Below are positions 10,875 to 15,951 of a DNA stretch of 64,000 nt, piece after piece; the stretch's first letter is position 1, and every line of letters starts with the position of its first letter. Where the stretch lies: positions 1 to 64,000 of the forward strand of contig CACBLW010000001.1 of the NCBI GenBank assembly GCA_902540265.1. The letters run 5' to 3'. The notes below the pieces were generated by a model. That model did no database searches. It was not told the origin of the DNA and worked only from the letters and a program-made list of their open reading frames with translations. Source of the stretch: an uncultured Alphaproteobacteria bacterium. GTDB lineage: Bacteria > Pseudomonadota > Alphaproteobacteria > HIMB59 > GCA-002718135. Position numbers and translations under genes: made by a program.

Positions 10875-11013
10875 AGCAGAAACTTTTTTTAGTAGAATGG
10901 TAAATTAAGATTATGGCTCAGTTTAATTGTTCCAAGCAATGTAACAAATAATTTGTAAAGTATATTGAGATTATATTAAGGAATTTTTTATAGAAATAAG
11001 AATGTAGTTAAAA

Positions 11014-11066
11014 TTTGGAGCGGGCGAAGGGATTCGAACCCTCGACTTCAACCTTGGCAAGGTTGC
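11014..11066 (-). repeat. 53-bp direct repeat, duplicated 3' part of tRNA-Gly (att-like)
   Basis: The sequence is identical to 11572-11624 and comprises three flanking bases plus the tRNA-Gly sequence from the CCA end through the T arm and the anticodon stem-loop (GCC anticodon included). After 11066 it departs from the tRNA, so D arm and 5' acceptor strand are missing and it cannot be a functional tRNA. Confidence 0.95.
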
Positions 11067-11141
11067 CAAATACATTGTTTGCTTATTATTTACCGAATAT
11101 TGGAATAATATTTGTAAAAAAATAAATATATTTGAATCCAA

Positions 11142-11160
11142 AGGGCTACTTGGAGGCTAC
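11142..11160. promoter_or_regulatory. Putative integrase arm-type repeats (right arm)
   Basis: AGGGCTACTT at 11142-11151 followed by AGGCTAC at 11154-11160 forms a close tandem of a GGCTAC motif 76 bp from the left 53-bp repeat. The 10-bp word AGGGCTACTT recurs exactly at 11542-11551 beside the other repeat. The motif is conspicuous against the AT-rich background. Reading it as an arm-binding site is inference from position. Confidence 0.45.
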
Positions 11161-11251
11161 GTAAAAAAATACTTATTTATTATAATATTAAATATTACAC
11201 TTTTTTATAGTTATTTGATTTGGTAATTTTATTAAATCACAAGGGGGTAAA

Positions 11252-11512
11252 ATGTTACAAATAATTAGTCACGAAGTGAAAGATGTTGATGTATGGTTAT
11301 CTTTTAACGATGAAAGAGTAAAAACTTTCTCAAAGTTTGCTGATAACATTATTGACTTTGTCGATACTGAAAATTCAAATTACGTTTCAATATGCTTTAA
11401 TGTTTTAGATGAACAAGAAATGGACAAAGTGCTTGGCTCTGAAGAAGTAAGAAATGAGGCTGAAAAGCATGGTGTTATTTTTGATACTCTGAAAAGATTT
11501 ACTCAAAAATAA
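11252..11512 (+). CDS. Small alpha/beta-barrel-like protein, sole gene of the tRNA-Gly element
   Basis: An 86-residue protein. The pattern VKDVDVWLSFNDERVKTF, then NYVSICFNVLDEQEMDKVLGSEEVRNEAEKHGV, is like small dimeric alpha/beta-barrel (ABM-like) domains, in which a DxxxW segment is followed by two strands and a helix ending in a Gly-Val turn. No catalytic residue can be named. It has the strongest ribosome-binding site of the region, AAGGGGG at 11241-11247, five bases before the ATG. It is the only gene between the 53-bp tRNA repeats, so it is the cargo if the element is mobile. Function is unknown. Confidence 0.65.
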   Translation: MLQIISHEVKDVDVWLSFNDERVKTFSKFADNIIDFVDTENSNYVSICFNVLDEQEMDKVLGSEEVRNEAEKHGVIFDTLKRFTQK

Positions 11513-11531
11513 TTATAAAGAATAAGTCTAA

Positions 11532-11551
11532 TGGCTACTCTAGGGCTACTT
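11532..11551. promoter_or_regulatory. Putative integrase arm-type repeats (left arm)
   Basis: TGGCTACTC at 11532-11540 and AGGGCTACTT at 11542-11551 form a tandem 20 bp from the right 53-bp repeat. They match the pair at 11142-11160. In a circularised element the core repeat would be flanked on both sides by these words, as in phage attP sites. Function is inferred from arrangement only. Confidence 0.45.
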
Positions 11552-11571
11552 ATTTGTTGTGATGTTTAATT

Positions 11572-11624
11572 TTTGGAGCGGGCGAAGGGATTCGAACCCT
11601 CGACTTCAACCTTGGCAAGGTTGC
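11572..11624 (-). repeat. 53-bp direct repeat, tRNA-Gly 3' part (att-like)
   Basis: An exact copy of 11014-11066, here part of the intact tRNA-Gly gene. Identity starts in the T-run just outside the encoded CCA and ends after the anticodon stem. This is the expected extent of an attachment core in the 3' half of a tRNA gene. Confidence 0.95.
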
Positions 11625-11648
11625 GCTCTACCCCTGAGCTACGCCCGC
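11574..11648 (-). tRNA. tRNA-Gly (GCC)
   Basis: On the minus strand the 75-nt sequence folds as a complete tRNA. The acceptor stem pairs GCGGGCG with CGCCCGC. The D arm reads GCTCAGGGGTAGAGC, the anticodon stem AACCT/AGGTT carries loop TGCCA with GCC in the centre, and the T arm contains GGTTCGAATCC. The discriminator T and the CCA end are genome-encoded. It lies 55 bp downstream of blh on the same strand. Its 3' part is duplicated at 11014. Confidence 0.97.
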
Positions 11649-11702: not shown

Positions 11703-12521
11703 TTATTTAAATCTTCTTCTGTAGACAATATCAATAAGTAACATATGAGGAAGCGTTAAAGCAGCAAGTCCAATGAAGATTACTTTCAATATCGATTCAT
11801 ATAATGATAAATTTTGAACTAAATAGTAAACAATTCCTAAACCTCCAATCCAAGAAATCACAGTAAAAATTATTGTGGAATAAATAACAAAGTATTTATT
11901 TTTTAAATTTAAATAAATATTTTTAATCAGATGTTTTAAGTGTTTGTAAGTGTGAAAAAAACAGAAATATATTGCAAAGCTTAGTAATGGATCAAAAAAA
12001 TAAAAAATTAATAGGAGAAATAGAATCTCAATAATTCCTTTTCGTAATTTCTTTTCGAAGAAGGAGAGATAAATAAAATATATTATAGATAATAATGTTA
12101 AAAAATATGGTATAAAAAAATATTTTTGGACTGAATAAATATTATTATTCGTTAGATATTCAAATATCAAAAAAGATTGATCTTCATTAAAAAATATTAT
12201 TCCAAAAATAATAGTCATTCCATAAGTAAAGCTTATAGAATACTTATATTTATTTATTTTAAAATTTGTCCAATCACACAATCCAAAATGGGCAATAGTC
12301 ATTATAATAAAAATCGTTAGTGCAATAATAGGAAAATATATCCAAAATAAAATGACTAGAAAAAATAAAATTAGATAGTAAAAAATAAATTGTAGAAATT
12401 GAATTCTGTTACTAAAACCTACTAAAGAAGCAACTGCACCATCAAATGAACCATGTGGAAGACCAATGAAAAAAATTAATAAAAAAGAAATAATATTTAA
12501 AATTGTAAGGTCGGCTAACAT
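11703..12521 (-). CDS. blh: Beta-carotene 15,15'-dioxygenase (Brp/Blh family)
   Basis: A 272-residue, highly hydrophobic membrane enzyme that cleaves beta-carotene into two retinal molecules, the chromophore of microbial rhodopsins. The family's histidines are visible: LPHGSFD (His 23), AHFG (His 78), HTYKHLKH (His 190 and 194) and LPHMLL (His 259); the first four sit at the spacing of the iron ligands described for marine Blh. About seven to eight membrane segments fit the profile. It is last in crtI-crtB-crtY-blh, one base after crtY. Retinal production implies a rhodopsin elsewhere, because none is encoded in this window. Confidence 0.92.
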   Translation of the reverse strand: MLADLTILNIISFLLIFFIGLPHGSFDGAVASLVGFSNRIQFLQFIFYYLILFFLVILFWIYFPIIALTIFIIMTIAHFGLCDWTNFKINKYKYSISFTYGMTIIFGIIFFNEDQSFLIFEYLTNNNIYSVQKYFFIPYFLTLLSIIYFIYLSFFEKKLRKGIIEILFLLLIFYFFDPLLSFAIYFCFFHTYKHLKHLIKNIYLNLKNKYFVIYSTIIFTVISWIGGLGIVYYLVQNLSLYESILKVIFIGLAALTLPHMLLIDIVYRRRFK

Positions 12522-12522
12522 A

Positions 12523-13605
12523 TTATTTAAATAATTCTTTTATAAAAGGAAGCTTGGGCATACTATTTATAATTTTTAACTTAGTTAGCAAATTTGATTC
12601 ACCCATCATAAAACTTTGGAATTCATTTCCATTTAGATTAGAAGCAAGTTTTATAAATGACCTTCCATCTTCTCTGTTATTTTTTAAAAAATTAATAAAA
12701 ACTTTATCCATTTTTCTTTCTAAAAAATTATGGATATTTACATAGTTGTTCTTTGAGTTTTTTAACAATTGGATTTGTTTGATAAGAAATGAAAAAGCAT
12801 ATCCAGTAGAGGGCTTGCAGGCGCCTCCTCTAATACCAATGTTGAAGATATTAGAATTGACTGATCTTTTCTCCCCTGCAAAAAACATTGGTATTACTCC
12901 TTTTTCTGAGCCCTGTTCTTTAAATTTATTAATATTATTTTTCTTTAAGTAATCATTTATTTTTTCTCTGTACCAGGAGTTATGAAAAACATCTTTTGAA
13001 AATACCGTCGATTCAACTAGCGCTTTATTGTGACTAAATGGTAATATGTACATGAAATGTAAAACGTTGTTTTCTTCAGTAAAATGCATCAAGGTTAATT
13101 TATTTTCATTAAAAGTATTATCTGCAACGGTAATATTAATTCCAAAAAAATGTTGTAATAATTCACCTTTTTTTTCTTTTGCTGATCGTGAATCATATAT
13201 TTTTTCAGCGTAATATATTTTGTTATCAGTAGTGATTATTTTAAAATAATTTTGTTCAGGTAAATATTGGACAACTTGTTTGTTTATTATTTCTAATTTA
13301 TTTTTTGTTTCTAAGCAAAATTTTTTCCAAGTTTTAAAACTAATGACACAATAAGGTTTATCTAAACTTGTAAGTGTAACGTTTGTATTTTTGTTACCAA
13401 TAGTCCATTTGTACCATTTTTTTTCAATAATTTTTTCAAAAGGCTTCATCCAATCTGTTAACCAAAAACCAAAAATATTATCTCTTTTGTTTATATCTTG
13501 ACTTTCAAATGCAATGATTTCGTTATAATTATCTCCATAAAGAATTTTATTTACAGCTAAGCCACTAGGGCCTAGGCCAATTATTGCGGCTTTATAAATT
13601 TTCAT
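12523..13605 (-). CDS. crtY: Lycopene beta-cyclase
   Basis: A 360-residue FAD/NAD(P)-dependent cyclase that converts lycopene to beta-carotene. The dinucleotide-binding motif is at the N-terminus (AAIIGLGPSGLA, Gly 10, 12, 15), FWLTDW appears near residue 55, and the diagnostic RGGACKPSTGYAF block lies near residue 260. The frame stays open upstream to 13638, but ATG 13605 is preferred because it places the Rossmann strand directly at the N-terminus. It still overlaps crtB by 14 bases, so the two are translationally coupled. Confidence 0.9.
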   Translation of the reverse strand: MKIYKAAIIGLGPSGLAVNKILYGDNYNEIIAFESQDINKRDNIFGFWLTDWMKPFEKIIEKKWYKWTIGNKNTNVTLTSLDKPYCVISFKTWKKFCLETKNKLEIINKQVVQYLPEQNYFKIITTDNKIYYAEKIYDSRSAKEKKGELLQHFFGINITVADNTFNENKLTLMHFTEENNVLHFMYILPFSHNKALVESTVFSKDVFHNSWYREKINDYLKKNNINKFKEQGSEKGVIPMFFAGEKRSVNSNIFNIGIRGGACKPSTGYAFSFLIKQIQLLKNSKNNYVNIHNFLERKMDKVFINFLKNNREDGRSFIKLASNLNGNEFQSFMMGESNLLTKLKIINSMPKLPFIKELFK

Positions 13606-14473
13606 TTGGAAGATTGTCTCTAATTTTTTGATACTCATATTTCATAAAAGGGATAAAAATAAAAAGTAAAATTGATTTAATTGTAATTGAAGATTTTTCT
13701 AATAAATTTAAATATACCCTTTCTCTAAAATATTTTTTTTTATTGGATTTTATCTTAATGCCAATACCTCTATAAACATTAGCTGCAATGAATATGCCTA
13801 GTCTTGTAGATACCGGAATATATTTTAAACCAGCAAAACCATTTTGATAAAACTTATCTGAAAGGCCTATTACTGCATGAATTGCATTTGATATTATTTC
13901 ATCTTTTTCTGAACTTTTGTCATGAAGATCAGTTAAATTTTTTAATGATATATCAGGTATCCAATTTGCTGGTAAATATATTCTTTTCATTTTTGAATCT
14001 TCATAAACATCACGCGCTATATTTGTAAGCTGCATTCCAATACCTAAATCAATTGCAGATCGTGCTGCCTTTTTATGTTTTACTCCTATAATTTTAGACA
14101 TCATTAATCCAACAGTACCAGCAACATGATAGGAATATTTTATAAGCTCTTCCTTGTTTTGAATTCTAATTTTTTGCTGATCCAAAATAAATCCTTCTAT
14201 TAAATCAATGAAAATTGAGTTGTTTATTTTACTTTTTTGCAAAAAAATATTTATTTTGTTATTTTTATTTTTTTTTATTTCTTCAATTGCATCTTTAAGA
14301 TAATCAGTTTGATCCTCACTGCACTTATCTGCAATGTCATCAAAATATCTACAAATTGAATAAAGTATACCTGCTTTTTTTTTTGAGTTTTTTGGTAAAA
14401 AAAAACTTGCCCAATAAAAACTTTTACCCTCTCTTTTAAGATCTTTCGAGGAATTAAGTTCTAAATCAAACAT
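13592..14473 (-). CDS. crtB: Phytoene synthase
   Basis: A 293-residue squalene/phytoene synthase family enzyme that condenses two geranylgeranyl diphosphates to phytoene. Both aspartate-rich Mg-diphosphate motifs are present: CRYFDDIAD (Asp 45, 46, 49) and NIARDVYED (Asp 155, 159), the latter followed by the conserved RIYLP. It follows crtI with a two-base gap and overlaps crtY. The GGPP synthase (crtE) needed upstream in the pathway is not in this cluster. Confidence 0.93.
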   Translation of the reverse strand: MFDLELNSSKDLKREGKSFYWASFFLPKNSKKKAGILYSICRYFDDIADKCSEDQTDYLKDAIEEIKKNKNNKINIFLQKSKINNSIFIDLIEGFILDQQKIRIQNKEELIKYSYHVAGTVGLMMSKIIGVKHKKAARSAIDLGIGMQLTNIARDVYEDSKMKRIYLPANWIPDISLKNLTDLHDKSSEKDEIISNAIHAVIGLSDKFYQNGFAGLKYIPVSTRLGIFIAANVYRGIGIKIKSNKKKYFRERVYLNLLEKSSITIKSILLFIFIPFMKYEYQKIRDNLPNENL

Positions 14474-14475
14474 AT

Positions 14476-15951
14476 TTATTTTAATTCAGATTTAATTATA
14501 TTTTCAACGACTTTAGCTGAAGAGAGAACACCTGGTATTCCTGCGCCTGGATGAGAACCTGCAGCTGAAAAATATAGGTTTTTAATTTTTTTATCTTTGT
14601 TGTGATATCTAAACCAGGCTGATTGGGTAAAAATTGGAGCTATAGAAAAACCTGCACCATGCATAGAATTGTAATCGTTTTTAAAATCTTTAGGGTTCAT
14701 CCAAAAAATATCGGTGATATTGTCTTCTAAATCTGGCATAATTGTCTTTGACAATTCTTTAACTATTTTATTTTTAAGATTTTCTGATTCAACATCCCAA
14801 TTAACATTGCCTTGTAAATTAGGCACTGGACATAAAACGTAGAAACTATCACAACCTTCTGGAGCAAAAGATTTGTCAGTTGCAGTAGGTCTATGAATAT
14901 ATAAAGAAAAATCTTCAGATAATATTTTATTTTTAAATATATCATGAAGCAAAGACTTAAATCTTTCAGTCATCCAAATAGTGTGGTGAGCGACTTTATG
15001 ATATTGTTTTTTTGTTCCAAAAAAAAGCACAAAGAGACCCATTGAATATAATAAGTTTTTTTCTTTTAATATGGGTCTACTTAAATTTTGTTTTTTTAAA
15101 AGATTGGAATAAACCATTGGTGGGTCAGCATTACAAACAACTAAGTCTAGATCAGTAATTTCTTCATTGTTTGTTAATATTTTTGTAATCTTATTATTTT
15201 CAATAATAAACTCTTTAGCTTCTGTGTTAGTTTTAATTTTAACACCACAATCAACCATTAATTTTTTTAATTCAGATACAATTTTACCAGTACCACCCAT
15301 ACAAAAGAACACACCCCATTTTCTTTCTAAATAATGAATTAAAGCATAAATCGATGTTGTTGTATGTGGATCACCCCCAACTAAAAGAGGGTGAATTGAA
15401 AATGCTTTTCTAAGATAAGGGTTTTTTAGATAACTGTTTACAAGTTGAGATACTGTGAAATAACTTTTTAAAATAATTAAATTGGGAATGACCCCTAACA
15501 TTTTAAAAAAAGAAATGAATGGTTTATCAGCTAGTTTTGTAAAACCCACATCAAATATTTTTTTTGATTGATTTAAAAGGTTTGAATATCCTTCTATGTC
15601 CCTTTTATCAAATTTACTTATCTCACTGTTTGTTTTTTCAACTGTAGAACAATAATCAAAAGTTTTACCATCATGAAAATAATATCTATACCAGGGTTCA
15701 AGAGGAACAAAATTCAAATAATCTTCCCTTTTTTTTCCAAATAAACTAAATAATTCATCAAAAAGAAATGGTGCTGTTATGACCGTTGGTCCCGCATCAT
15801 GCTTAAAGCCATTCACTTCAAAAACTCTTGCTCTTCCTCCAAGGTCGTCTAGTTTTTCAATAATTGTTGTATCGTAGCCTAATTTTTTTAATCTTAAGCT
15901 AATCGCAATACCTCCAAAACCACTTCCTATAACTACTGCTTTTTTTCCCAT
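14476..15951 (-). CDS. crtI: Phytoene desaturase (CrtI type)
   Basis: A 491-residue FAD-dependent desaturase that takes phytoene to lycopene. The FAD-binding motif VVIGSGFGGIA (Gly 9, 11, 14) is followed by EKLDDLGGRARVFEVNGFKHDAGPTV. The C-terminal FAD contact AAGSHPGAGIPGVL is typical of bacterial CrtI. Length is normal. It is the first gene of the minus-strand carotenoid operon; its promoter must lie in the 57-bp divergent spacer shared with the gene at 16009. Confidence 0.95.
   Translation of the reverse strand: MGKKAVVIGSGFGGIAISLRLKKLGYDTTIIEKLDDLGGRARVFEVNGFKHDAGPTVITAPFLFDELFSLFGKKREDYLNFVPLEPWYRYYFHDGKTFDYCSTVEKTNSEISKFDKRDIEGYSNLLNQSKKIFDVGFTKLADKPFISFFKMLGVIPNLIILKSYFTVSQLVNSYLKNPYLRKAFSIHPLLVGGDPHTTTSIYALIHYLERKWGVFFCMGGTGKIVSELKKLMVDCGVKIKTNTEAKEFIIENNKITKILTNNEEITDLDLVVCNADPPMVYSNLLKKQNLSRPILKEKNLLYSMGLFVLFFGTKKQYHKVAHHTIWMTERFKSLLHDIFKNKILSEDFSLYIHRPTATDKSFAPEGCDSFYVLCPVPNLQGNVNWDVESENLKNKIVKELSKTIMPDLEDNITDIFWMNPKDFKNDYNSMHGAGFSIAPIFTQSAWFRYHNKDKKIKNLYFSAAGSHPGAGIPGVLSSAKVVENIIKSELK

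Follow-up and report, generated by a model that had tools for sequence, protein, structure and literature searches.

A 558-bp unit at a tRNA-Gly gene in the HIMB59 lineage, probably a minimal gene cassette with attachment-site arms recombined in trans

We analysed a 64,000-nucleotide stretch of DNA (positions 1 to 64,000 of contig CACBLW010000001.1, assembly GCA_902540265.1; hereafter the window) from an uncultured alphaproteobacterium of the HIMB59 lineage, in which a tRNA-Gly gene is bordered by a 558-bp unit carrying a single cargo gene, P0001. We suggest that this unit is quite probably a minimal non-autonomous integrative gene cassette, which possesses the arms of an attachment (att) site and is recombined in trans by P2-like integrases. 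Gene exchange is widespread among streamlined ocean bacteria although these seldom carry integrons, plasmids or prophages, and by which vehicles it takes place is an open question.

In the proposed mechanism, the unit would consist of a phage-type att site, with the 3' part of tRNA-Gly as the core and two direct-repeat arm words on each side, and one cargo gene. The GGCTAC arm words would be bound by a tyrosine integrase supplied from elsewhere, presumably a P2-like one whose N-terminal domain binds arms, and recombination of two cores would excise a 558-bp circle. The circle would be inserted at an intact tRNA-Gly so that the tRNA is restored and older units are pushed outward, and tandem arrays would build up from many such insertions, by cassettes whose arm words differ and presumably have an integrase each. 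We infer that the arm words may serve as integrase-binding sites, that the integrase would act in trans, and that the unit would pass through a circular intermediate.

Structure of the 558-bp unit

The unit is delimited by two copies of the tRNA-Gly 3' part, one of which lies within the intact gene (Table 1). The first-pass annotation, which was made from the letters of the window alone, had described them as an exact 53-bp direct repeat with a period of 558 bp, and the repeat alignment confirmed this; a wider alignment of the same repeat extends over 59 nt at 97% identity, with both mismatches near the left edge. It had also placed AGGGCTACTT beside both cores, each copy together with a second GGCTAC, and the word search agreed. 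The 10-mer occurs only twice in the 64 kb, at 11142 and 11542 (expected number 0.05; two copies in 0 of 100 shuffles), and GGCTAC begins at 11144, 11155, 11533 and 11544, so that there are two per arm, 11 bp apart in each arm. In the whole window GGCTAC is found 13 times on both strands against 6.3 expected. If the unit were circularised, the arms and the core would span 186 bp, and the arm words would form direct-repeat pairs on both sides of the core, which matches the att layout of P2, where the core is flanked by direct-repeat arm pairs.

The single 86-codon open reading frame (ORF) with a ribosome-binding site that had been annotated in the unit is present as described (Table 1). This ORF, P0001, has no match to an integrase and no other ORF lies in the unit, while the sole match to the integrase family PF00589 in the draft genome (77.7% complete) is on contig C4, outside the unit; the annotated lack of an integrase thus holds.

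Movement of the unit between genomes

When we compared the unit among genomes (G numbers denote genomes and L numbers loci), its boundaries proved to be precise. Homology starts at the core, and the sequence to the left differs, except for a neighbour common to G010 and G075. An empty site, which the first-pass annotation had proposed to look for, was found in G064, where the relative of the window's left flank runs straight into an intact tRNA-Gly. The unit is followed by the tRNA in seven of 14 genomes (G000, G075, G059, G090, G043, G010 and G068) and by seven different units in the other seven (G079, G025, G081, G012, G062, G022 and G088), and the content of the same tRNA-Gly site differs between relatives. 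The order of units is thus shuffled, and relatives do not carry the fixed 558-bp arrangement that had been named as evidence against a mobile element.

The identities of the units and of their hosts also disagree. Between G090 and G043, the unit body is 99.2% identical, while ftsK is 78.3% identical (1.4 kb matched in G090) and the right flank 81.2%. Of the 31 pairs that were compared inside two clades of the unit, every one has a higher identity in the unit than in ftsK, and in 28 of them the unit is 95-99.8% identical with host ftsK at 77-86%. Up to 1.8 kb from the tRNA, the right flank is often more alike between species than ftsK (94.3% against 79% for G000 and G088), a possible sign that the region near the tRNA has been exchanged or is unusually conserved. 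Since this flank disagrees with ftsK, the mobility argument is based on pairs with low identity in both markers, and by this comparison of sequences the P0001 unit has moved between species.

Arrays of units at tRNA-Gly

We scanned 80 tRNA-Gly-site loci from 79 other genomes of the genus, together with the window (81 loci), for copies of the tRNA 3' part. An intact tRNA-Gly is present in 78 of the 81 loci. At least two tandem cores, all in the same orientation and none reversed, were found in 56 of these 78, with one to five units each, and the remaining 22 have a single copy and no unit nearby (in 17 of the 22, the sequence on the array side extends beyond 10 kb). The arrays comprise 111 units, 82 of them shorter than 2 kb, with cores that are either long (about 51-53 bp) or short (about 24-28 bp). 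A single ORF of 60 aa or more is found in 43 of 46 long-core units below 2 kb, in which the main ORF lies on the minus strand in 27 and on the plus strand in 18, counts that are not reduced to families. Outside the genus we examined 20 loci, picked partly because multiple copies had already been seen there, and arrays are present in 10 of 18 loci of a second family and in one of two from other genera of the same family. An assembly artefact was rejected because the arrays recur in many independent genomes.

In five loci (L060, L065, L069, L093 and L101) a second core comprises tRNA-Gly in full or nearly so, and some elements thus duplicate all of the gene. Larger elements of about 5-14 kb with TGTCACA-type arms (left at about 105, right at about 75-90) are found at the same tRNA-Gly, six of them in the genus with similar integrases of 314-324 aa (L072, L092 unit 2, L103 unit 2, L111, L113 and L065 unit 2) and three in the second family (L187, L191 and L192); these are possibly phages or satellites.

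Matched arm words

In long-core units, the left arm is located at 98-155 nt, counted from the start of the unit, and the right arm at 28-95 nt ahead of the following core. Both arms of a unit share one word, frequently as two copies at a distance of about 10-15 bp, and this word is not the same in all units; AGGGCTACTT, AAGTGTCCCGC, AAGTGGGACG, TGTCGGAG, TTGGAGCGT, ACTTGGACGTA, ACTACTGC, AGTGCCGATA, TGTCACAAC and others were seen. For the statistics, one unit was taken per cargo family, clustered on the main cargo protein, and a score of at least 9 was counted as a match. The arms match in 38 of 44 comparisons within units, in 240 of 1892 between units (same-type pairs included) and in 0 of 43 inner windows (permutation p <= 5e-5). 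For integrase-less units shorter than 2 kb, the corresponding values are 22 of 26, 83 of 650 and 0 of 25. An earlier whole-unit clustering was dropped because shared ends merged most units (with 8 groups, 6 of the 8 within-unit and 5 of the 56 between-unit comparisons reached at least 9). When the positions were not preset and the outer 350-400 bp of each end were searched, the score was reached by 45 of the 53 units measuring 800 bp or more, 42 of the 45 in the same two windows, so the arms are matched at fixed places. The attP-like (phage attachment site) tandem repeats first noticed on both sides of the core in the window therefore recur as paired arms in most cargo families, and GGCTAC is one case of a general matched-arm rule and not the random word that would have spoken against the annotation.

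The same arms are also found with other cargo, as the first-pass annotation had proposed to check. GGCTAC arms recur in a 733-bp unit of G078 (L112 unit 3), where the cargo is 151 aa long, and AAGTGTCCC arms accompany different cargo in L049, L068 unit 4, L085 unit 2, L103 unit 1 and L116 unit 1. Outside the genus, 9 of 14 scored units reach at least 9, one of them with TGTCGGAG, and four others share TTTGTTTAACACC or part of it. Short-core units, inspected by eye, seem to carry arms of another kind (ACTATATTGCA and similar words, period 11). In the P0001 family, conservation of the right arm is 0.93, with 0.83 and 0.62 in its surroundings.

Hybrid units, whose two ends are of differing arm types, were observed in L061 (G017), in the G024 copy (L161) and in L066 units 2 and 3. 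They look as if neighbouring units had fused through loss of the core between them.

Integrases of the arrays

Intact PF00589 tyrosine integrases are encoded in 9 of the 111 array units, and fragments of the same family (47, 47, 82, 84 and 101 aa) lie near the right end of five more; among the sister units of the cassettes, some thus bear an integrase and others a truncated one. The G017 integrase (333 aa, PF00589) adjoins right-arm words TGTCGGAG, which are common to the integrase-less units L055, L081 and L092 unit 3. It shares 53% identity with the integrase of G022 and also 53% with that of G032, which has AGACGC words on both sides, and 33% with a representative of the six TGTCACAAC-type integrases. 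In the phage collection, its closest relatives are integrases of Mannheimia phages (30.9% identity over the whole length), which we take to be P2-like.

Of 20 loci that we inspected with intact integrases outside the arrays, 10 have a tRNA or tmRNA gene (tRNA-Arg, tmRNA, tRNA-Gln, tRNA-Leu, tRNA-Val) and none with tRNA-Gly. Next to tRNA-Leu-associated integrases, a second copy of the final 22 nt of the tRNA occurs at a distance of 228 bp (L142:2557/2785) and 185 bp (L143:3723/3908), perhaps marking very small units at another tRNA. For a 352-aa chromosomal tyrosine recombinase of G000 (L001:1465-2523), next to a gene that is presumably sirtuin-like judging from its motif, PF00589 matches that resemble it in frame length and profile range are present in many genomes of the genus, and no link between it and the arm words was established. 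One viral contig contains the 49-bp core, and its ORFs resemble a high-G+C phage region with no visible relation.

How the unit may be moved

Here, we need to consider several observations that weigh against recombination in trans. First, the tRNA-Gly integrase with matching GGCTAC arms that the first-pass annotation had suggested searching for was not found: a pattern scan of IMG/VR gave 0 matches, none of the 91 stretches that fit the pattern in an integrase scan of IMG/VR was a relative, and among 385 genomes of the class the exact pattern occurs in the window alone. Second, the G017 integrase, the sole integrase tied to an integrase-less arm type, belongs to a hybrid unit with a left arm of a different type. 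Third, 6 of the 44 cargo families have no arm match at score 9, and in the P0001 family conservation of the left arm is 0.83 against 0.83 and 0.91 in its surroundings, the left arm being swapped, altered or lost in G024, G068 and G088 among 16 aligned units. Finally, the flank is more similar than the unit in some pairs, such as G075 and G088 (97.0% and 79.4%, respectively).

It might also be that host homologous recombination moves the units, the 53-bp tRNA copies being RecA substrates and the arms fossils of integrases lost as the units became smaller. An identity of 53 bp suffices for low-frequency RecA exchange, exchange seems to occur here where the right flank is unusually similar and ftsK differs (as in G000 and G088), and hybrid units with mismatched arms do exist (G017 and G024). 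However, fossils should lose their match, whereas it is kept in 22 of the 26 integrase-less families below 2 kb with words that differ between families, and the movement seen between G090 and G043 ends at the cores though the flanks are only 81% alike. We consider this explanation unlikely.

Another possibility is mobilisation in cis, by accretion, in which an integrase-less unit travels only with an adjacent integrase-bearing element via the outer att copies. Cis-mobilisable elements (CIMEs) and accretion are on record in the accessible part of PMC3146451, and in G079 the P0001 unit is located directly outside an 11-kb integrase-bearing element. In the seven genomes listed above, however, the unit stands beside the tRNA with nothing between, its left neighbour varies apart from the one that G010 and G075 share, and units retain arm pairs of their own, which joint movement would not need. 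It seems improbable that the unit depends on such a neighbour. An inert, vertically inherited remnant of a collapsed prophage or island is hardly credible, since, although integrase fragments of 47-101 aa survive in five sister units, the unit, flank and ftsK identities, the varied neighbourhoods and the empty site contradict it; the collapsed prophage of the first-pass annotation may be partly right as an origin, and fails as an inert remnant. An integron-like cargo unit mobilised in trans, also offered there, is judged to be the best fit, and the integrase would then act from outside the unit.

Cargo and neighbouring genes

The family of P0001 could not be assigned. Its best matches in Pfam and NCBIfam are below the cut-off, the best in PHROGs (E 0.028) is a family of unknown function, PADLOC and 50,697 phage records gave no match, and no relative was found among solved structures (best E 0.34). 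The AlphaFold model is too weak for a fold search (mean predicted local distance difference test score, pLDDT, 53.5). A genome-contig scan gave 15 relatives of the ORF, all in uncultured Alphaproteobacteria records with AG- isolate names, which we take to be single cells, and there were none in IMG/VR; within the order, it was detected in 17 of the 102 genomes from the genus of the window and in 0 of 60 from other genera.

Other units carry a sulfotransferase, an FkbM methyltransferase, a major facilitator superfamily (MFS) transporter or a 2-oxoglutarate (2OG) oxygenase. The only gene of L074 unit 2 (1180 bp) encodes a DUF4268 protein that matches the candidate defence family PDC-S11 (E 8e-110), and some of the cassette cargo, namely the four kinds above and this candidate defence protein, looks adaptive. 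The 1320-bp sulfotransferase cassettes contain a complete tRNA-Ser(tga) just inside the left arm (L109:16226-16315; also L056, L068, L069 and L112), at the position of which the AAGTGTCCC units, by eye, have only a tRNA-Ser-like 5' piece.

In the window, carotenoid genes are located to the right of the tRNA (11703-15951; BCD, lycopene cyclase, phytoene synthase and a desaturase-like member of the amine oxidase family), and sulfotransferase, glycosyltransferase-like, FkbM and 2OG-oxygenase genes to the left of the unit.

Table 1. Coordinates of the unit and of the adjoining features in the window
Feature	Position	Strand	Basis
tRNA-Gly(gcc), intact, presumed integration target	11574-11648	-	ARAGORN; Rfam RF00005, 70.9 bits
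tRNA-proximal core copy, putative att site within the intact tRNA	11572-11624	-	Exact 53-bp repeat
Distal core copy, displaced tRNA-Gly 3' part, putative att site	11014-11066	-	Exact 53-bp repeat; inter-genome unit homology begins here; G064 empty site joins left flank to intact tRNA
558-bp unit, one core and a 505-bp body	11014-11571		Repeat spacing; cross-genome homology; its ORF in 17 of 102 genus genomes
Left-arm word 1, AGGGCTACTT	11142-11151	+	Word search
Left-arm word 2, GGCTAC	11155-11160	+	11 bp after the GGCTAC of word 1
Right-arm word 1, GGCTAC	11533-11538	+	Word search
Right-arm word 2, AGGGCTACTT	11542-11551	+	Word search
AGGGGG, ribosome-binding-site-like	11242-11247	+	Read in the sequence
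Cargo ORF P0001, 86 aa, family not assigned	11252-11512	+	ORF list; profile searches below cut-off
Left chromosomal flank, whose relative abuts intact tRNA-Gly in the G064 empty site	10875-11013		82.8% over 325 aligned bp including the core start

Comparison with known systems

It has been known that cassettes or islands can stand in tandem, marked by repeats of tRNA or tmRNA genes (PMC7771536, PMC10872708 and PMC3146451, in the parts accessible to us), so the statement in the first-pass annotation that no such element has been described is too strong for the array. Additive flexible genomic islands (fGIs) at tRNA genes are described in Actinomarinales, where one cassette is common to two genera at about 75% identity (PMC7771536), and in Ca. 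Methylopumilus (Methylophilaceae), with a tRNA-Lys island and islands that range from 330 bp to 42 kb (PMC10872708). They resemble the unit in the direct repeat of a tRNA part at the far end, in site content that varies between relatives and in their streamlined aquatic hosts, but the passages on them contain no attP-type arm words, no matching within a cassette, no helper integrases by arm type and no near-identical integrase-less cassettes across species. The ssrA islands of Dehalococcoides, as far as the accessible text goes, are in tandem with 3'-end repeats as boundaries, include 15 without an integration module and have CIME-like members; their helper is a CcrB-related serine recombinase and they often carry reductive dehalogenases (PMC3146451). 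The arrays of the genus differ from them in having tyrosine recombinases and many sub-kilobase one-gene cassettes with their own arms. Like a CIME, the unit has kept its att sites and one ORF and has neither an integrase nor transfer genes.

A review, seen in part, treats clusters of attC sites lacking integron integrases (CALINs) and other helper-dependent elements (PMC11389934). Integron arrays and CALINs, as described there, share with the tRNA-Gly arrays rows of mostly single genes, one site orientation, an integrase that is often absent and a shuffled order. Unlike integron cassettes, the units end in tRNA-Gly 3' parts with arms and not in attC sites, as judged from the units themselves with no attC search program run; no integron integrase was identified, the PF00589 protein of G000 not having been typed as IntI or otherwise; and the main ORF may be on the plus or on the minus strand. 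Tycheposons of Prochlorococcus and relatives are also tRNA-bounded cargo elements of aquatic bacteria; at second hand, in the part of PMC10872708 available, they measure 4-200 kb and have a tyrosine recombinase, while the unit has 558 bp and one ORF without an integrase match. Phage satellites have genes that capture or redirect packaging, and the sole ORF of the unit, P0001, shows only the PHROGs match given above and none to phage records.

The closest likeness in the att site itself is to P2 and HP1, a core with direct-repeat arm pairs, which would here span 186 bp against the 220 bp listed for P2 attP in a table of PMC4111918. The units differ from P2 and HP1 in that att site and integrase gene lie apart and arm words change between units. 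Lateral transfer in marine bacteria is discussed in the accessible part of PMC12416821, and HIMB59 phosphate islands have no tRNA at their borders according to that of PMC10734472. At the level of titles and abstract starts, with subscription journals mostly outside coverage, no description of arm-coded cassettes was found. Arrays of cassettes marked by RNA-gene repeats, some without an integrase, are thus known from these partly accessible sources, and the arm-coded one-gene cassettes are apparently new.

Implications

It is an even question whether the loci together form a system parallel to integrons, in which one tRNA-Gly would be the landing site for a shared pool of mostly one-gene cassettes, every one with an entire phage-type attP and an arm word for its address, and diverging integrases, carried by a minority of the elements, would move separate sets of cassettes in trans and shuffle the array, with mobile elements as small as about 0.5 kb. 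If this is true, phage-type attachment sites can become a cassette system, and the natural series of arm words beside integrases would be material for studying arm recognition by tyrosine integrases. A tRNA-anchored array with readable arm addresses would then be a concrete and testable route of gene exchange in streamlined ocean bacteria.
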